From positions 53,546 to 117,545 of the forward strand of contig CAIQJF010000072.1 in the NCBI GenBank assembly GCA_903872075.1: a DNA stretch of 64,000 bases. Reading direction: 5' to 3'. The DNA comes from an uncultured Caulobacteraceae bacterium. GTDB lineage: Bacteria; Pseudomonadota; Alphaproteobacteria; Caulobacterales; Caulobacteraceae. The notes under the pieces are model-generated. The model was given only the letters and a program-made list of their open reading frames with translations, had not been told where the DNA came from and made no database searches. The number at the start of each line of letters is the position of its first letter. Within the stretch, counting starts at the first letter, position 1. Positions 8,925 through 61,535 of this stretch are shown piece by piece. The translations under genes and the position numbers were made by a program.

Positions 8925-9863
8925 ATGGACACCCTGGCCGTGGTCATCGAAGAACCCGAGCGCCTTTCCCTGCGCCGCCTCACGCTCAAACCCGTCGCCG
9001 ATGACGATCTGGTGGTCGAGGTGCGGTGGAGCGGAATCAGCACTGGCACCGAGCGCCTGCTGTGGAGCGGCCGCATGCCGCCGTTCCCGGGCATGGGCTA
9101 TCCGCTCGTCCCCGGCTACGAATCGGTTGGCCGCGTGATCGACGCCGGCGCCGCGTCGCGGGACCGGATCGGCCAGACCGTGTTCGTGCCGGGCTCCTCC
9201 GGGTTCGAGGACGCCAGGGGCCTGTTTGGCGGCGCCGCCCGCCGGCTTGTGGTCGGCGGGGCCCGGGCGCCCGAGATCGCGGAGTCGCTCGGCGACCAGG
9301 GTGTGCTCATCGCCCTGGCGGCCACGGCCCGGCACGCCCTCGCCGCCGGCGCCGCGCCGGTCGATCTGATTGTCGGCCATGGCGTTCTGGGCCGCCTTCT
9401 GGCGCGGATCGCCGTGGCCATGGGGGGGCCGCCGCCGACGGTCTGGGAGACCAACGCCCAGCGCCGCGCCGGGGCCGCCGGCTATGCGGTCATCCACCCG
9501 GATGAAGACCCACGCCGGGACTACCGGGCGATCTATGACGTCAGCGGCGATTCGAAACTGCTCAACACCCTGATCGGCCGGCTCGCCCGGGGCGGAGAGG
9601 TGGTGCTGGCGGGGTTCTATGATCAGCCCCTCTCCTTCGATTTTCCGCCGGCCTTCATGCGCGAGGCGCGCCTGCGCGTCGCCGCCGAATGGTCGCCGCC
9701 GGACCTCGCCGCCACCACGGAACTGATCGCCGGCGGGGGGCTGTCGCTGGACGGCCTCATCACCCACCGCGTCCGGGCTTCCGACGCGGATCAGGCCTAT
9801 CGCACCGCCTTCGGCGACGCCGCCTGCCTCAAGATGGTGCTCGACTGGAGTGAGGCGTCGTGA
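8925..9863 (+). CDS. bchC: Bacteriochlorophyllide a dehydrogenase BchC
   Basis: 312 aa MDR-family protein; SGISTGTERLLWSG, YPLVPGYESVGRV; position before bchXYZ. Confidence 0.94.
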   Translation: MDTLAVVIEEPERLSLRRLTLKPVADDDLVVEVRWSGISTGTERLLWSGRMPPFPGMGYPLVPGYESVGRVIDAGAASRDRIGQTVFVPGSSGFEDARGLFGGAARRLVVGGARAPEIAESLGDQGVLIALAATARHALAAGAAPVDLIVGHGVLGRLLARIAVAMGGPPPTVWETNAQRRAGAAGYAVIHPDEDPRRDYRAIYDVSGDSKLLNTLIGRLARGGEVVLAGFYDQPLSFDFPPAFMREARLRVAAEWSPPDLAATTELIAGGGLSLDGLITHRVRASDADQAYRTAFGDAACLKMVLDWSEAS

Positions 9864-14298: not shown

Positions 14299-14529
14299 AT
14301 GGCAGATAGAGATTCCAGTACAGGCAGCCTGTCCGGCCTCACCGAGGCCGAAGCGAAGGAGTTCCACAGGATCTTCCTCGGAAGCTTCGTGCTGTTCGTG
14401 ATGCTCGCGGTCACCGCACACATTCTGGTCTGGGCATGGCGTCCCTGGTTCCCGGGCGCTCACGGTTATGCCGAGGCGGTTGTCGGAGCGAAGATGGCGC
14501 TCGCCCCCGTCCTCGCGCACTTCGCTTAA
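14299..14529 (+). CDS. pufB: LH1 (B870) beta subunit PufB
   Basis: 76 aa; [39 protein letters not shown]; strong RBS GGAGGAG. Confidence 0.96.
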
Positions 14530-14541
14530 AGGAGAGAGAAC

Positions 14542-14751
14542 ATGTGGAGACTTTGGCTGCTTTTCGATCCGCGCCGCGTACTCGTCGCGCTGTTCGCGTT
14601 CCTGTTCGGTTTGGCAATCCTGCTGCATTTCGTCGTGCTCGGCACCCCTCGGTTCAACTGGATCGAAGGCCCGACGGCGAAGAAGCCGGCCCCCGCCGCC
14701 GCCCTCGCGCCCAATCTCGATCCGGCCAAGGCGCCGGTCGCGTCGGCCTAG
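14542..14751 (+). CDS. pufA: LH1 (B870) alpha subunit PufA
   Basis: 69 aa; MWRLWLLFDPRRVLVALFAFLFGLAILLHFVVLGTPRFNWIEG. Confidence 0.96.
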   Translation: MWRLWLLFDPRRVLVALFAFLFGLAILLHFVVLGTPRFNWIEGPTAKKPAPAAALAPNLDPAKAPVASA

Positions 14752-17004: not shown

Positions 17005-18396
17005 TCAGGCCGGCGATTCGACCCGGCGGCGGCGCAGCAATGGGAACATGGCGGCCAGGGTCACGATCAGCAGGGCCATTTCGAGCCCATAGACGAAATC
17101 ATAGCCCGCGGCCGGCCCCAGCCCGTCCGGACTGAAACCGCCGGCGATGACATCGCGCAGGATTCCGCCCAACGCGATCGCCAGCCCCGCCGATGTCGCC
17201 TGCACGGCGCCCCAGGCCCCAAGCGCCAGGCCCGTCTGATCCTTGGGCGCCATGTTCATGGTGGCCGTCAGGGTGCCGTGGCTGAACAGACCGCCGCCGA
17301 ACCCGATCAGAAGCGTACCGACGCCGAAGAAGAGCGGACTATGCAGCGGGGCCGCGAGCACGACGGCCATGAAGGCCGGAAGGCCGACGAGGGCGCCCGA
17401 ACTGGCCATGCGGAAGGGATCAGCGCCGCGGCTCAGCACCCGCGAGGCCAGACCGAAGCCAGCCACCGCGCCCAAGGCGAGCGTGGCGGTCAATTTGGTG
17501 GTCGCCCCAACCGTCAGGTGAAGCACCTGGCCGCCATAAGGTTCGAGCAGTACGTCCTCCATGCTGAAAGCCATGGTGCCCACCCCCACGGCGATCAGGC
17601 GGCGCAGAGCGTGGCCGCCATGGATGAAGCTCGCCCAGGAGTCGCGAAATTCGGGCGGCGCGGCTTCGGCCTGCCCTCGCCAGGCGTGGCGGGTCTCCTG
17701 TTTCCACACCGCCGCGACGTTGAGAATCATCGTCGCCAGCGCTGCCCCCTGGATCACCTGGATGAGGCGGCCATTTGTGAAGTCCGCCAGCAGGGCGCCG
17801 AACAGCAGGGCGCTGGCGATCATGCCGAGCGCCAGCATCACATACATCAACCCGACCACCTTGGGCCGGGACTCGGCCGGCGCGAGATCCGTCGCCAAGG
17901 CCAGACCGACCGTCTGGATCGTATGCAGGCCCGCGCCGGTCAGCAGGAAGGCGACGCCCGCGCCCAGATAGCCGATCCACTTCGGCGCATGGGCGGCCTG
18001 GCCCGACCCTGCGAGAACCAGGATGGCGAAAGGCATGATCGCCAGCCCGCCGAACTGCGCCAGGGTGCCGTTCCAGATGAAGGGGACGCGCCGCCATCCC
18101 AGCGCGGATTTATGGACATCGGAACGAAAGCCGATGATGGCCCGGAACGGCGCGAACAACAGCGGAAGCGAGATCATCACCGCCACCAGCGAGGCGGGCA
18201 CGCCGAGTTCGACGATCATCACCCGGTTGAGGGTTCCCACCAGCAGCACCAGGGCCATGCCGACCGACACCTGGAACAACGAGAGTCTCAGCAGTCGCGA
18301 CAGCGGAAGGTCGGGCGTCGCGGCGTCGGCGAACGGCAGAAAGCGCGGGCCGAGGGAGGCCAGGCGCCGGATGAGCACGTTCTTGACCGGGTTCAT
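17005..18396 (-). CDS. pucC: PucC/LhaA-family light-harvesting complex assembly (BCD) transporter
   Basis: 463 aa multi-TM; RLSLFQVSVGMALVLLVGTLNRVMIVELGVPASLVAVMISLPLLFAPFRAIIGFRSD; downstream of pucBA. Confidence 0.93.
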   Translation of the reverse strand: MNPVKNVLIRRLASLGPRFLPFADAATPDLPLSRLLRLSLFQVSVGMALVLLVGTLNRVMIVELGVPASLVAVMISLPLLFAPFRAIIGFRSDVHKSALGWRRVPFIWNGTLAQFGGLAIMPFAILVLAGSGQAAHAPKWIGYLGAGVAFLLTGAGLHTIQTVGLALATDLAPAESRPKVVGLMYVMLALGMIASALLFGALLADFTNGRLIQVIQGAALATMILNVAAVWKQETRHAWRGQAEAAPPEFRDSWASFIHGGHALRRLIAVGVGTMAFSMEDVLLEPYGGQVLHLTVGATTKLTATLALGAVAGFGLASRVLSRGADPFRMASSGALVGLPAFMAVVLAAPLHSPLFFGVGTLLIGFGGGLFSHGTLTATMNMAPKDQTGLALGAWGAVQATSAGLAIALGGILRDVIAGGFSPDGLGPAAGYDFVYGLEMALLIVTLAAMFPLLRRRRVESPA

Positions 18397-18488: not shown

Positions 18489-18527
18489 AAAAAAACAGGG
18501 GCCGGGATCGCGAGATCCCGGCCCCTG
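18489..18527 (-). terminator. Rho-independent terminator/attenuator between pucA and pucC
   Basis: On minus strand CAGGGGCCGGGATC-TCGC-GATCCCGGCCCCTG (14-bp perfect stem) followed by TTTTTTT. Confidence 0.9.
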
Positions 18528-18551: not shown

Positions 18552-18800
18552 CTATTTCGCGGCGGGAGCCGCGGGCGCGGCGGCGGCCGGCGCGGCCGCA
18601 ACCGGAGCCGCCATCGGCGCGGGCGCGGCGGCCGGAGCCTCCGCCTTGGCCTTGGCGCCGCCTTCAAGGAAGGCCGGGAACCACGTCGTGTGGGTCAGCA
18701 CCGAATAGTGGACCAACAGCGATGTCGCGGCCACGGCGCCCAGGAAGAGCGGAAGACCTACGGTCGGTTTAACGACCAGCCACATTTCTTTCTGATTCAT
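18552..18800 (-). CDS. pucA: LH2 alpha subunit PucA with Ala/Pro-rich C-terminal extension
   Basis: [48 protein letters not shown]..., aligns gap-free to the Rps. acidophila LH2 alpha as recalled (His31 ligand). Confidence 0.95.
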
Positions 18801-18812
18801 GACGGGGTCCCT

Positions 18813-18968
18813 CTACTTGAGCCAGGGCGTCAGAACGAACGCCAGGGCGTGAGCGGCCAGCGCGATGCAGAAGAACACCCGCGCGCCGTCAATGATGTGA
18901 GTATGCAATTCTTCGGACTCGGCCCGGGTCAGCCCGGTCGGCCACACTCTATCAGCGTCATTCGCCAC
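18813..18968 (-). CDS. pucB: LH2 beta subunit PucB
   Basis: Reverse-strand translation from GTG at 18968: [51 protein letters not shown] (51 aa); absent from the ORF track. Confidence 0.94.
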
Positions 18969-19116: not shown

Positions 19117-19160
19117 TGTCACCCTAGCCTGACGGTTTAGAGTGTCAAGCTAGAATTACA
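19117..19160. promoter_or_regulatory. Tandem PpsR/CrtJ operators upstream of pucBAC (19117-19134 and 19143-19160)
   Basis: TGT-CACCCTAGCCTG-ACG and TGT-CAAGCTAGAATT-ACA, both N12, separated by exactly 8 bp. Confidence 0.75.
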
Positions 19161-20391: not shown

Positions 20392-21477
20392 ATGAAGGCG
20401 CGCGAATTGAGGGAAGCTATGGAAAGCCACGGAACACTGGAAACACTCTTGAACAGCGACGTGCTCTCGGGAACGCCTGACGCGGCGGCCGAGGCGGTCG
20501 CTGGCGCGATCACGCAGATGGCCGAGGCGGCGCTGTCGCTTTCGGTCCTCGTCGCAACCCCACCGCTGCACGGCCGGCTCGGCGCCCATGCCGGCAGCGC
20601 CAACAGTGACGGCGACGGACAGAAGAAACTCGACCTCATCGCCGAAGACCTGTTCGCCGCCGCGCTGCGCCGGGCCGGCGTCGCCGCCTATCTGTCCGAG
20701 GAAGTCGAGGAGGCCAGCCTGTTCGACGCCAAGGGCGTGATCGCCGTGGCCATCGACCCGCTGGACGGATCGTCGAACATCGACGTCAACGCTCCGATCG
20801 GCACGATCTTCTCGATCTTCCCGATGATTCCCGAAGGCCTGGCTGAACCGGCTCACGCTTTCCGGCAACCGGGCCGCAACCAGCTGGCGGCCGGCTTCTT
20901 CATCTATGGCCCGCAAACCTCCCTGGTCGTGACCTTCGGCAAAGGCATTCACCTGCTGGTGCTCAACGACAAGACCGGGACGTTCGTTCTGGTGGAGTCC
21001 GGGGTCACGATCCCGGCGGAGCAGGCCGAGTACGCCATCAACGCCTCGAACTACCGGCATTGGCCGGAGTCCGTGCAGAGCTACATCGACGACTGCGTCA
21101 AAGGCGCCGATGGTCCCCGCGGCCGCAACTTCAACATGCGTTGGGTCGGATCGCTGGTGGCTGATTCGTACCGCATCTTCATGCGCGGCGGCATCTTCCT
21201 CTATCCGGGCGATAAGCGCCCCGGCTACGAACAGGGCCGGCTTCGCCTGATGTATGAAGCCAATCCCATCGCGTTCCTGGCCGAACAGTCGGGCGGCGCG
21301 GCGACCGACGGCGTCGACAATATTCTCGACCGCGTCCCCCACTCGCCGCACCAGCGCGTTCCCCTGGTGATGGGGTCGACCGACAAGGTCGAGCGCGTCC
21401 GCCAGTACTACCTCGACCTTTCTCCGCCGACCCGCGACGCGCCGCTCTTTGGGCGACGCGGCCTGTTGCGCGACTGA
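20392..21477 (+). CDS. cbbF: Fructose-1,6-bisphosphatase class I
   Basis: AIDPLDGSSNIDVNAPIGTIFSIFP; ALRLMYEANPIAFLAEQSGGAATDG-type C-terminus. Confidence 0.95.
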   Translation: MKARELREAMESHGTLETLLNSDVLSGTPDAAAEAVAGAITQMAEAALSLSVLVATPPLHGRLGAHAGSANSDGDGQKKLDLIAEDLFAAALRRAGVAAYLSEEVEEASLFDAKGVIAVAIDPLDGSSNIDVNAPIGTIFSIFPMIPEGLAEPAHAFRQPGRNQLAAGFFIYGPQTSLVVTFGKGIHLLVLNDKTGTFVLVESGVTIPAEQAEYAINASNYRHWPESVQSYIDDCVKGADGPRGRNFNMRWVGSLVADSYRIFMRGGIFLYPGDKRPGYEQGRLRLMYEANPIAFLAEQSGGAATDGVDNILDRVPHSPHQRVPLVMGSTDKVERVRQYYLDLSPPTRDAPLFGRRGLLRD

Positions 21478-21497
21478 TTGCCGAAGGAGTCGCGCCC

Positions 21498-22372
21498 GTG
21501 TCGCAGAAGCACCCGATCATCGCCATCACCGGCTCTTCCGGCGCGGGAACCACCTCCGTCAAACGCAGCTTCGAACAGATCTTCCAGCGTGAGGAGATCA
21601 ACGCCGTCTACATCGAAGGCGACGCCTTCCACCGATTCAACCGGGTCGAGATGGCGGCGAACATGGCGGCCGCCGGCAAGGAGGGGAACACCCACTACAG
21701 CCACTTCGGCGACTACGCGAACCTGCTGCCCGAGCTGGAACAGGTGTTCAAGGACTATGGAGCGACCGGCCAGGGTCGCACCCGCAACTATGTCCACGAC
21801 CGGCAGGAGTCGGAGAAATTCGGCGTGACGCCGGGCGAGTTTACGCCCTGGCGGCCCTTCGAAGAGGGGTCGGACCTGCTCTTCTACGAAGGCCTTCACG
21901 GGGCCATCGTCACGCCACAGCTCAATCTCGCCCAGCATGTGGACCTGAAGATCGGCGTGGTGCCGGTCATCAACCTTGAATGGATTCAGAAGCTGCACCG
22001 CGACAAGGCCACCCGCGGTTACAGCGCCGAGGCGGTGACCGACACGATCCTTCGGCGGATGCCCGACTACATCAACTTCATCTGCCCACAGTTCAGCGAG
22101 ACGGACGTCAACTTCCAGCGGGTGCCCACGGTGGACACCTCGAATCCGTTCGTCGCCCGCTGGATTCCGACTCCGGACGAATCGATCGTCGTTATTCGCT
22201 TCAAGAAGCCTCAGGGTTTCGACTTCCCCTACCTGCTCTCCATGATCCACGGCAGCTTCATGAGCCGGGCCAACTCCATCTGCATTCCAGGTGGAAAACT
22301 TGACCTCGCGATGCAGCTGATTCTCACCCCGATGATCCTCAAGCTGATAGAGCGTCGCCGACGCAGTCATCG

Positions 22373-22376
<4 letters not shown>
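21498..22376 (+). CDS. cbbP: Phosphoribulokinase
   Basis: [40 protein letters not shown]; 292 aa. Confidence 0.96.
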
Positions 22377-24403
<2,027 letters not shown>

Positions 24404-24423
24404 CCTCCCGGAAGGAGAACTCC

Positions 24424-27023
<2,600 letters not shown>

Positions 27024-27040
27024 TATCGGGAGAGATCAGC

Positions 27041-27460
27041 ATGCGAGTGACTCAAGGCGCCTTTTCGTTCCTGCCCGATCTGACCGACGCGCAGATCACC
27101 AAGCAGGTCCAGTATTGCCTCGACCAGGGCTGGGCCCTGGGCATCGAATATACGGACGATCCCCATCCCCGGAACACCTACTGGGAGATGTGGACCAATC
27201 CGATGTTCGACCTGAAGGACGCCGCCGGCGTCCTTCAGGAGCTGAACGACTGCCGCAAGGTCCACGGCGGGCTCTACATCCGCATCAACGCCTTCGACTC
27301 CAGCCACGGCTGGGAGACGGTGCGACTGAGCTTCATCGTCAACCGCCCCGCCACCGAGCCCGGCTTCCGCCTGCAGCGGAGCGAGGGCAAGAACCGCAAC
27401 ATCACCTACACCACCACCCCCTATTCGTCCGATAAGCCCGAAGGCGAGCGCTATGCCTGA
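27041..27460 (+). CDS. cbbS: RuBisCO small subunit
   Basis: 139 aa [51 protein letters not shown]. Confidence 0.97.
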
Positions 27461-28391
27461 CGGCGCGCCGGAGGCGGCCGGGGCGGACGCCCTCCCCGAC
27501 CGCATCGATCTGAGAGCCGACATCGAGCAGACCGGCGTCGCCGAGGTACTGGACCGGCTCGAGCGGGACCTGGTGGGCCTTGCCCCCGTGAAACAGCGGA
27601 TTCGCGAAATCGCAGCCCTGCTGGTGGTCGAACGCGCCCGCCAGACCTTCGGTCTGGCGACGGAACCGCCGACCCTGCACATGAGCTTCACGGGCAACCC
27701 CGGCACGGGAAAGACCACCGTGGCCATGCGCATGGCCGATATTCTGCACCGCCTCGGCTATTCCCGCCGCGGCCACCTCGTTTCGGTCACCCGCGACGAC
27801 CTGGTCGGCCAGTACATCGGCCATACCGCGCCCAAGACCAAGGACGTGATCAAGAAGGCCATGGGCGGGGTGCTGTTCATCGACGAGGCCTACTATCTCT
27901 ACCGGCCCGAGAACGAGCGCGACTATGGCCAGGAGTCGATCGAGATCCTGCTTCAGGTGATGGAAAACAACCGGGACGATCTGGTGGTGATCCTGGCCGG
28001 CTACGCCGATCGCATGGCGCGCTTCTTCGAGAGTAATCCGGGCTTTCGCTCCCGCATCACGCACCACGTGGATTTCCCGGACTACAGCGACGGCGAATTG
28101 ATGATCATCGCCGAGAAGATGCTGGAGCAGCAGAACTTCCGCTTCGACGACGGCGCGCGCGCGGCCTTCGCCGAATACATCCCCCTGCGCCGGGCCCAGG
28201 CGCATTTCGCCAACGCCCGCTCGGTGCGCAACGCCATCGACCGCATGCGCCTGCGGCTGGCCAATCGGGTGTTTTCCACCAGCGCGGAGGTCACCCGAGA
28301 TGATCTGATGACCCTTCGCGAGGCTGACGTGCGCGCCAGCCGGGTCTATAGCGGCGGCCTTCTCGCCGCCGGCCAAAAGGATCCCGCGTGA
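27453..28391 (+). CDS. cbbX: Red-type RuBisCO activase CbbX (AAA+)
   Basis: 312 aa; [65 protein letters not shown]. Confidence 0.97.
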
Positions 28392-29059
28392 CCGCCAACC
28401 CCCTCGCCATCTCGCCGTCGATCCTCGCCGCCGATTTCTCCCGCCTGGGCGAGGAGGTGCGCGACGTGGTCGCCGCCGGCGCCGACTGGATCCATGTCGA
28501 TGTCATGGACGGCCATTTCGTGCCCAACATCACCATCGGGCCGGACGTCCTGAAGAGCCTGCGTCCGTGGACGGACAAGGTCATGGACGTCCATCTGATG
28601 ATCTCGCCCACCGATCTCTATCTGGAAGCCTTCGCCAAGGCCGGGGCGGACGTGATCACGGCTCATGTGGAGTCCGGCCCGCACATCCACCGCACGCTCC
28701 AGGCCATACGCGCCCTGGGCAAGCAGGTCGGGGTGACGCTCAATCCCGGCACCTCGATATCAACGCTGGAGAGCGTCATCGGGCTCGTGGACATGGTGCT
28801 GGTGATGTCGGTCAATCCGGGCTTCGGCGGCCAGGCCTTCATCCCAGAGGCGGTGGAGCGCGTGCGCGCCATCCGCAAGATGGCCGGCGCCCGGCCGATC
28901 CGCATCGAAGTGGACGGGGGCGTGACGCCCGCCAACGCGGGTCTGCTGACCGAGGCCGGCGCCGACACCCTCGTGGCGGGCTCAGCCGTCTTCAAGGGCG
29001 GCCGCGACGCCTATGCGGCCAATATCGCCGCCATCCGGACCGCCGCCGGCCAGATGTGA
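28388..29059 (+). CDS. cbbE: Ribulose-phosphate 3-epimerase
   Basis: 223 aa; [46 protein letters not shown]; equivalent to rpe. Confidence 0.96.
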
Positions 29060-31057: not shown

Positions 31058-31822
31058 TCACGCGGGTCGAACCCGCCGCAGGATCAGCAGAGCCGCGAGG
31101 GCCAGGACCGGGAAGACCAGACCGCCCGGGGCCGGAAAGAACGGCCAGGCGGCGCCGAGGTGTTCGAATCCGCCGAGCCCGCCGGCCATGGCGCCCGCCA
31201 GCAGGATGTTCGGCGCGCCGTGACCCGCCGCGGCGGCCAGCCAGGTGCCGGCCCGATCGCGCAGGTCCGTCAGCAGAGCGCGGTAGATCAGACAGGCGGC
31301 GACAAAGGCCGCCAGCATGGCCGGCGGCGCCGTTTCCAGTTCGGGAAACAACCCGACCTTCAGGAACGTCGGGACCAGGTGCCAGGCCGCCCAGACCAGA
31401 CCCAGAACCCCCACACCCCAGCGCCGGCCGAACGCCGCCACGGCCAGACCCAGCCCGCCGCCCGCCCAGCCCAGCTCCTCCAGAACGCTGGTCAACGCAG
31501 AACCGCCCGCCCGCGCAGCCACGATCTCCGCGCCCCCTGCGGCGGGGTCGAACCGCACCACCCCCGCCAGCAGGCCGGCGCCAACAGCGCCGATCGCGAT
31601 GCACAGAGTGATCGCCGCGGCCAGTGCGACCCAGACCCAACGGCGTTCGCCCGTCCGCCGCGGCAGGCCGGCATTGAGGGCAAGGCCGGCCAGAGCGGGA
31701 CTGGCGATCATCACCAGCTTGCCGAGATCCGCCAGACGCGGATCGCCGGCCGCCATCAGCGCGGCGGGCGCCCCCAGAACGATGGCGACAAAAGCGCCGA
31801 ACCTCAGCCCGGCGAATCTCAC
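31058..31822 (-). CDS. CPBP-family (CAAX protease-like) intramembrane metalloprotease
   Basis: Multi-TM; TSVLEELGWAGGGLGLAV ... GLVWAAWHLVPTFLK and late His motif. Confidence 0.8.
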   Translation of the reverse strand: MRFAGLRFGAFVAIVLGAPAALMAAGDPRLADLGKLVMIASPALAGLALNAGLPRRTGERRWVWVALAAAITLCIAIGAVGAGLLAGVVRFDPAAGGAEIVAARAGGSALTSVLEELGWAGGGLGLAVAAFGRRWGVGVLGLVWAAWHLVPTFLKVGLFPELETAPPAMLAAFVAACLIYRALLTDLRDRAGTWLAAAAGHGAPNILLAGAMAGGLGGFEHLGAAWPFFPAPGGLVFPVLALAALLILRRVRPA

Positions 31823-39137: not shown

Positions 39138-39229
39138 CCCGGCCGCTCTTTACGGAACCATCCCGCGCGTGAGAGGTTGACCCTGCAAGGGACGCCGCCC
39201 GGACCAGGGCGTTGGGAACGAAGACGATC

Positions 39230-39811
39230 ATGAGCATGAGAACGGCCGCCCTCGTCGCGGCCCTTGGACTGAGCCTCGGCCTCGCCGCCTGCGAGACCGC
39301 CACACCCTACCAACCGCTGCAGAAGAACGCCCGCGTGTCCGGCGGCTTCAGCGATCAGAAGCTCGACGCCGACCACTTCAGGGTGTCGTTCAAGGGCAAC
39401 ACCCTCACCTCCCGGCAGACTGTGGAGTCCTATCTGCTCTATCGCGCCGCCGAACTGGCCGTCGCCCAGGGCTACGACTGGTTCGAGACCACCGACCGCC
39501 ACACCGACGCCAATCGCCGCACAGTCTACGACGCCGATCCCTTCTATGGACCGGGATATCGCTGGGGCTATTTCCGCCCGTCCTGGAGCTTCTACGGTCG
39601 CGCGCGGGGCTGGCGCGGCTGGGGCCCGTTCTGGGGCGATCCCTTCTGGCCGGACACCAGCACCCTGCAGACCATCGAACAGTTCGAGGCGAGCGCGGAC
39701 ATCGCGCTGCATCACGGGCCGAAACCGACCGGTGACGCCCGCGCCCTCGACGCCCGCGAGGTGATGGCCAATCTGGGTCCGAAGATTCAGCGGCCGGCCC
39801 CGCCGAAGTAG
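39230..39811 (+). CDS. Putative lipoprotein of the CC0125/CC1285 type
   Basis: MSMRTAALVAALGLSLGLAACETATPYQPLQ; GGFSDQKLDADHFRVSFKGN; lipobox LAAC. Confidence 0.75.
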   Translation: MSMRTAALVAALGLSLGLAACETATPYQPLQKNARVSGGFSDQKLDADHFRVSFKGNTLTSRQTVESYLLYRAAELAVAQGYDWFETTDRHTDANRRTVYDADPFYGPGYRWGYFRPSWSFYGRARGWRGWGPFWGDPFWPDTSTLQTIEQFEASADIALHHGPKPTGDARALDAREVMANLGPKIQRPAPPK

Positions 39812-59698: not shown

Positions 59699-60110
59699 TT
59701 CCAGGCCCCGCCAACCTAACTTTCTGATTTTCTTATTATAATTATAGCGCCCGCCATTTCGCGGGCCAAAGTGTGGCTGGCGCGAAGCGCGCCACAATCC
59801 CCTCAAAAAGTTCTTAAAAAAAAAGTTCATCTGGGTTTCTTCAAGCCCGTCCGAGCCTTGCCGCGAGTCAACTGCGAATCGGCCCCCTAGCCGCGGATTT
59901 TCGCGTTGACGAGCCCCCCCTCAGGGCTACTTTGAGGACATCAACTGTATCGGTCTTGTACGGACTATGTTCACGGTGGCGGAACATACGTGTCCGCTCC
60001 GCGGGGACTTTTGACTTTTTTTCCGGCCCTTGGGGCGGGGCCGCCTGGCCCTTTCCCAGGTGCGGGACGGGCGACAAAAACAATTCGACTTGGGGGCCCT
60101 GAGGCTAGGG

Positions 60111-61535
60111 ATGAACACGAATACCGCCATTGCGACAACGACCCACGCACCAGTAACAGTCTGGTCGAAGGCCAGCCATGCCTTGCGACATGAGATGGGT
60201 GATGACGCCTTCGGTTCGTGGCTCGCGCCCGCCTGTCTGAAGATGGGCCCGGACGGGACCCTTTGCCTTGTTACGCCCACCGGCGTGGCTCGCGACTGGA
60301 TCCGCCGCTATGCGTGGCGGCGGATCGGTGAACTTTGGGCGGCGAACGACCCGGATGGCCGCGCGCTGAATCTGAAGACCCGTCTCGAGTACGAGGCGGA
60401 AGGCGGTGAGGCCGGTGACTCCCTCGTCGCCGAGCCCGAGCCGCAACTCACCGCCGGAGCGGCGGCGGAGGACGCGACCTCGCCTCACGGCTGCCGCACA
60501 AGCCCGCTTCAGGAACGTTTCACCTTCGCGACGTTCGTCGCCGGCCCCTCGAACGAATTTGCCCATGCGGTCGCCCGGCGCGTGGCGTCCTGGTCCGACG
60601 GCCACTTCAATCCGGTCATCTTCCACGGCCCCTATGGGTTCGGAAAGACCCATCTTCTCAACGCCCTGGCATGGGAAGCCATCAAGACGGCGCCCGACCG
60701 CAAGGTCGTCTACATGACCTCCGAACGGTTTCTGTCGAGCTTCATCCAGGCGGTGATGGATCGCCGCATGGCGGCGTTCAAGGAGTCCCTGCGATCGGCC
60801 GACCTGCTGCTGATCGACGATGTTCAGTTTATCGGCGGGAAACACTCGACGCAGGAGGAGCTGTTCCACACCCTCGCGGCTCTGATGGAAGACGGGCGGC
60901 GGGTCGTGCTGTCTGCCGATCGCCCGCCGGCGGCGCTCACCGAAATCGACGCGCGACTACGCTCCCATCTCTCGGCGGGTCTTGTCTGCGGGATCGAAAC
61001 CGCTGACCGCGAGCTGCGCATGGGTATCCTGGAGCGCAAGGTCCAGGTCATGGGCGAGCGCCAGGGTTTCTCCGGCGCGCTGCGTCCCGACGTCGCGGGA
61101 TTCCTCGCCGACCGCTTCTCCGACAGCGTTCGCGAGCTCGAAGGCGCGCTGAACGTGTTGATCGCGCGCATCGGCGGTGGCGTGACCACCCTGTCGCTCG
61201 ACGAAGCCCAAACCCTGCTGCGCCCCCACCTGCGCGGCGGAGAGAAGCGGATCACGGTCGACGAGATTCAGAAGGCGACGGCGGAACAGTTCGGTCTCAA
61301 GCAGTCGGATCTGATCTCGCCCGGCCGCGCGCGCGCGCTGGCCAGGCCTCGCCAGGCGGCGATGTGGCTCGCCAAGCAACTGACCACCAGGTCCCTGCCG
61401 GATATCGGCCGGCGGTTCGGCGGGAGGGATCACACCACCGTGCTTCACGCGGTGAGGCGGATCGAGGAACTGCGGCTGGGCGACCCTCAGCTGGCCCGGG
61501 ACCTGGAAGTCCTGCTGCGTAAACTGCGGGGCTGA
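60111..61535 (+). CDS. dnaA: Chromosomal replication initiator DnaA
   Basis: FHGPYGFGKTHLLNALAWEA; LLIDDVQFIGGKHSTQEELFHT; domain IV FGGRDHTTVLHAVRRIEEL; start at ATG 60111. Confidence 0.97.
   Translation: MNTNTAIATTTHAPVTVWSKASHALRHEMGDDAFGSWLAPACLKMGPDGTLCLVTPTGVARDWIRRYAWRRIGELWAANDPDGRALNLKTRLEYEAEGGEAGDSLVAEPEPQLTAGAAAEDATSPHGCRTSPLQERFTFATFVAGPSNEFAHAVARRVASWSDGHFNPVIFHGPYGFGKTHLLNALAWEAIKTAPDRKVVYMTSERFLSSFIQAVMDRRMAAFKESLRSADLLLIDDVQFIGGKHSTQEELFHTLAALMEDGRRVVLSADRPPAALTEIDARLRSHLSAGLVCGIETADRELRMGILERKVQVMGERQGFSGALRPDVAGFLADRFSDSVRELEGALNVLIARIGGGVTTLSLDEAQTLLRPHLRGGEKRITVDEIQKATAEQFGLKQSDLISPGRARALARPRQAAMWLAKQLTTRSLPDIGRRFGGRDHTTVLHAVRRIEELRLGDPQLARDLEVLLRKLRG

Follow-up and report, generated by a model that had tools for sequence, protein, structure and literature searches.

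An LH2 antenna of a Caulobacteraceae bacterium predicted to be blue-shifted by Phe44 and Leu45, and repeated paired switching of these residues among its relatives

A 64,000-nucleotide stretch of contig CAIQJF010000072.1, from the assembly GCA_903872075.1 of an uncultured Caulobacteraceae bacterium, was analysed over its whole length (the window), and this report concerns its pucBA genes, which encode the beta and alpha subunits of a light-harvesting complex 2 (LH2). Based on sequence comparison, pucBA probably encodes an LH2 of the usual type in which Phe44 and Leu45 of the alpha chain would remove the hydrogen bonds to the C3-acetyl groups and so shift the B850-type ring to the blue, and we put the probability of this reading at about 0.75. 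The lower-energy band is predicted to lie blue of 840 nm, most likely at 815-830 nm, an exact 820 nm being beyond the evidence. The analysis shows the sequence and its alignment, the copy number in the assembly, the purifying selection on pucB and the contrast between siblings, and from these we infer the ring assembly, wavelength, expression and ecological role of the complex. The colour switch is apparently fixed in the sole LH2 found, and it differs between close relatives with identical PucB.

The pucA gene (18552-18800, minus strand) encodes an LH2 alpha subunit of 82 residues with an Ala/Pro-rich C-terminal tail, and pucB (18813-18968, minus strand) encodes the beta subunit and has a GTG start and a GGAG ribosome site. 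Both match the Pfam light-harvesting complex (LHC) family, with 45.5 bits for pucA and 31.4 bits for pucB at a cut-off of 23 bits. The translated open reading frame of pucA places W7, H31, W40, F41, F44 and L45 at the key positions. In phmmer alignments PucA ran without gaps from Met1 against 1ijd_A, the alpha chain of LH3 (E=2.2e-18), and without shift up to position 48 against 9dwz_A and 7ze3_A. Since the solved LH2 and LH3 alpha chains align without gaps, F44 and L45 of PucA occupy the canonical positions, and an alignment offset at 44/45 was thereby ruled out. The preliminary description of this DNA, made from the letters alone, had proposed the gapless alignment from Met1 with W7, H31 and W40, the replacement of Tyr44-Trp45 by F44-L45, and IDGxR and AAH motifs in PucB, all of which agree with our results. 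The ligands of an LH2 are present, namely alpha His31, the beta His within LAAH and the B800-site beta Arg within IDGAR. The aromatic donors that B800-850 LH2 has at alpha-44/45 are missing from PucA, as they are from LH3 (B800-820); residue 41 is Phe instead of the bonding Tyr41 of LH3 of the 1IJD type, and donors are thus absent at all of 41, 44 and 45.

That alpha-44/45 tunes antenna colour is well established, both by mutants and by species in which light governs a switch between several puc operons. In B800-850 complexes, aromatic residues at alpha-44 and alpha-45 form hydrogen bonds with the C3-acetyl groups of the bacteriochlorophyll pair; with two bonds the absorption lies at about 850 nm, with the single bond of Tyr41 in LH3 it lies at about 820-824 nm, and the bondless PucD complex absorbs at 803 nm (PMC9618040). 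The LH3 structure retains the bond of alpha-Tyr41 to the alpha-bound bacteriochlorophyll (PMC9618040 Table 1). The Y44F/Y45L mutant of Rhodobacter (Rba.) sphaeroides, equivalent to F44-L45, is shifted from about 850 to 826-827 nm (PMC8775250, PMC11440610), and the measured complexes without both bonds span 803 nm (PucD of Rhodopseudomonas (Rps.) palustris) to the 826-827 nm of this mutant. In the window organism, Phe44 and Leu45 would be unable to form hydrogen bonds with these C3-acetyl groups and the B850-type ring would be blue-shifted; the B800 site would stay intact, the beta Arg of IDGAR being retained, and the LH2 would act as the main or sole peripheral antenna, passing energy to light-harvesting complex 1 (LH1). 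As residue 41 is Phe and not the bonding Tyr of LH3, the lower-energy band is expected at about 803-830 nm, likeliest 815-830 nm. The earlier label of an LH3-type B800-820 antenna thus holds for the blue shift predicted from the lost 44/45 donors, whereas the equivalence with LH3 at 820 nm is not supported, given Phe41. 9dwz_A, which has F41 and F44, bears the depositors' name B-800/820, which suggests that a complex of the 820 type can have Phe at 41.

Three points weigh against a band at 815-830 nm. No spectrum was found for the window organism or for any Acaudatibacter, the genus to which it probably belongs; PucA codes Ser27 (18720-18722), and Ser27 bonds a B850 pigment in Rba.; and bond loss can yield a single peak at about 803 nm, as in the PucD-LH2 of Rps. 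palustris, whose B850-type pair has no hydrogen bonds (PMC9618040). With donors missing at 41, 44 and 45, the window genes may accordingly encode a single-peak antenna at about 800-805 nm, of the LH4 or low-light LH2 kind, which we consider unlikely. Bradyrhizobium BTAi1, whose PucA reads M41, F44 and F45, is reported to have a single 803 nm band, which would favour such an antenna. On the other side, the F44-L45 double mutant of Rba. sphaeroides keeps a band at 826-827 nm (PMC8775250, PMC11440610), and Rhodoferax (Rfx.) antarcticus with F44-F45 absorbs at 819 nm (PMC5374385). Compensating contacts, through a beta Trp, alpha Ser27 or acetyl torsion, might instead hold the band at about 845-850 nm. 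A beta Trp does bond one C3-acetyl group in Phaeospirillum (Phs.) molischianum (PMC9618040), and PucB retains a C-terminal PWL motif, beside the Ser27 of PucA; even so, we judge such compensation very improbable.

The antenna predicted to be blue-shifted appears to be the only LH2 of this genome. Exactly four LHC genes above the cut-off were found in the assembly (4.36 Mb, 100 contigs, 93% complete), all within the window: pucB and pucA, and the core-antenna genes of LH1, pufB for the beta subunit (14299-14529, plus strand) and pufA for the alpha subunit (14542-14751, plus strand), both identified by family search. No second LH2 was found among the LHC genes of this incomplete assembly, and the evidence for a single puc pair is strong, not absolute. 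The single pucBA pair noted earlier for the window therefore extends to the assembly, subject to its 93% completeness. The suggestion that a blue-shifted antenna is the standard LH2 of the organism gains from this, short of a full exclusion of a second puc operon.

The window probably derives from Acaudatibacter (GTDB Palsa-881), a genus of Caulobacteraceae described from stratified boreal lakes. The passages of PMC12700997 on this genus report a photosynthesis cluster with LH2, pucAB and the Calvin cycle, with which the gene layout of the window agrees, and its main-text passages make no mention of antenna colour. The pucA gene was found in 4 of 16 genomes of the genus, namely the genome of the window (G000) and three congeners (G009, G012 and G002) with one puc pair each. 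Phe41 is common to all four, and the 44/45 residues are F44-L45 in G000 and G009 and Y44-W45 in G012 and G002. PucB of G012 is identical to that of the window, and pucB differs between the two in 11 codons, 11 synonymous and 0 nonsynonymous, so that pucB is under purifying selection. G012 is also closest to the window in nearly every linked gene, the exceptions being pufM (G002 86.9 vs 85.9%) and pucA itself, in which G009 is closer. A tree of bchZ, PufL and PufM joined G000 with G012 (support 98/97), as did a seven-gene tree (99/99), in which a clade of G000 and G009 was rejected by the approximately unbiased (AU) test (p = 0.011; 0.022 with pucC); by PucC alone this Phe-Leu clade was not rejected (p = 0.40). 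The rpoB gene, wanted for a species tree, was not found in the 93% complete assembly of the window. Since G000 and G009 do not form a clade on the multi-gene tree, at least two changes of colour state are required there. A recent transfer of an F44-L45 gene between G000 and G009 was considered and is unlikely, as synonymous differences are found in 20 of the first 48 codons and Leu45 is encoded by ctt in one and by ctg in the other. The two genomes share Ser27 with the same codon, and a short segment may go back to an older common ancestry.

The switching is not limited to this genus. A PucC tree was built from 64 rows, one for the window and 63 for fetched genome loci that carry a usable PucA and, next to it, a PucC; the rows were ranked by similarity to the Phe-Leu query, which biases the frequencies, among them the 33 rows with no donor at 44/45, 27 with both and four with one. 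The two-donor/no-donor state requires at least 14 changes when the four one-donor rows are excluded and 18 with one donor as a third state, counts which presume a common history of pucA and pucC, as separate transfer of pucA would also create changes. When well-supported branches alone are counted, the minimum is 9 changes for the two-donor group or 10 for the no-donor group. The states show only some clustering on the tree, the means after shuffling being 20.9 to 23.9 changes. Across nine independent alpha-44 contrasts, residue 45 changed in parallel in 8.3 on average and in the opposite direction in 0 (median p = 0.008). Sibling pairs include two Rhizobiales metagenome-assembled genomes (L041/L053), F44-L45 against Y44-W45, and Bradyrhizobium BTAi1 and STM 3809 (L055/L057), F44-F45 against Y44-W45. 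Among the residues co-varying with the switch, alpha-27 was the strongest of 111 comparisons, in about four of the nine contrasts, which are too few for a test; on this tree alpha-27 tends to be Ser with no donors and Ala with two. All 14 no-donor genomes that were checked, many of them metagenome assemblies, had exactly four LHC matches by family count alone, as expected of a genome with a single puf pair and a single puc pair. A search of viral contigs found no relatives. A targeted literature search found no report of repeated paired 44/45 switching in close relatives, which does not prove that none exists. Whether alpha-44/45 is a coordinated colour switch, flipped often in single-LH2 environmental phototrophs, including lake congeners with an identical beta subunit, and marking divergence of light niche, is in our estimate an evenly balanced question.

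The surroundings of pucBA point to an operon that is maintained, judging from the palindromes, the hairpin and the synonymous-only change in pucB. The pucC gene (17005-18396, minus strand; PUCC family PF03209, 504 bits) adjoins pucBA on the same strand. Directly 3' of pucA a GC-rich hairpin followed by seven U is predicted (18489-18527, minus strand; z = -3.9 for the pucA-pucC gap), at the same place also in three congeners, and between pucBA and pucC it may serve to terminate transcription or to stabilise the mRNA. Upstream of pucB lie two matches to the PpsR/CrtJ-type consensus, both by consensus match only. The palindrome TGT-N12-ACA (19143-19160) is found 174-176 bp upstream of pucB in 4/4 species, and the near-consensus site CGTCAGGCTAGGGTGACA (19117-19134) at matching distance in 4/4 species, G002 differing by one base. 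Exact TGT-N12-ACA matches number 7 in the window against 3.0 expected, so a single PpsR-type site is weak evidence and the conservation across species is better evidence. A silent or degenerating puc operon, whose colour would be without consequence, is the least probable alternative. Its precedent, Congregibacter litoralis, has pucBA and no LH2 was seen in its cells in a 2009 study, yet a 2025 review credits this species with LH2, which makes the precedent doubtful; against a silent operon, the difference of pucB from that of G012 is purely synonymous, and all four species have kept pucC, the palindromes upstream and the hairpin downstream.

The puc operon is flanked by the puf genes on one side and by a series of Calvin-cycle genes on the other. 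Family searches confirmed pufBA, pucC, a BchX-like NifH-family protein, the large and small subunits of RuBisCO, a cbbX-like AAA protein and ribulose-phosphate epimerase; the names bchZ, pufL, pufM, cbbR, cbbF, cbbP, cbbT and cbbA were read from translations and gene order. The Calvin-cycle genes (RuBisCO subunits, cbbX-like AAA protein and ribulose-phosphate epimerase) lie at 20392-29059, after the LH2 operon and a LysR-like regulator. The dnaA gene (60030-61535, plus strand), some 30 kb away from the photosynthesis/Calvin cluster, has genes of the fpg, ubiE, ABC1-kinase, coaBC-like and dUTPase families nearby, and its position means that the cluster may be near the replication origin. Open reading frames at 8925-9863 (plus), 31058-31822 (minus) and 39212-39811 (plus) have a coding-like GC pattern and no Pfam match at 1e-8.

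The window organism and its nearest sampled relative, with 850-nm residues and identical PucB, lend themselves as a natural pair to a test of antenna colour. The contrast of G000 and G012 bears on a possible partition of the water column by near-infrared colour, and it could help to tell apart what residue 41 and what 44/45 contribute to the spread of 803-827 nm. The abstract of PMC12817894 ties the blue-shifted 816 nm ring of Gemmatimonas phototrophica to deeper-water light, and under low light a blue-shifted antenna has been tied to a smaller back-flow of energy from the core (PMC8775250); either may apply to the window organism.

As compared to known antennas, LH3 of Rhodoblastus (Rbl.) acidophilus 7050 (PDB 1IJD) aligns without gaps and shares F44-L45 with the window PucA, but its Tyr41 bonds the alpha-bound pigment where the window has Phe41, and it was obtained from cells grown in low light, in a species that makes LH2 as well, whereas a single operon was found here. 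In 9dwz_A the run F41-P-A-F44 is as in the window PucA. The B800-826 complex of Rba. sphaeroides Y44F/Y45L is identical to it at 44/45, but is engineered and its flanking sequence is unlike. The PucD-LH2 of Rps. palustris (B800-803) likewise leaves the C3-acetyl groups without donors, but has Met-44/Phe-45 (numbering of the paper), is one of several LH2 types and has a measured single peak. Pseudohaliea rubra makes its 804/821 nm antenna consistently (2025 review). Rfx. antarcticus ANT.BR, a betaproteobacterium, also has one puc operon inside the photosynthesis gene cluster and no donors at 44/45, and its F44-F45 complex, in place of the F44-L45 of the window, was the one measured at 819 nm (PMC5374385). 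A sole blue-shifted LH2 is therefore not new, with Rhodoferax antarcticus as precedent, and of more interest is that closely related organisms differ by repeated switches in which 44 and 45 change as a pair.
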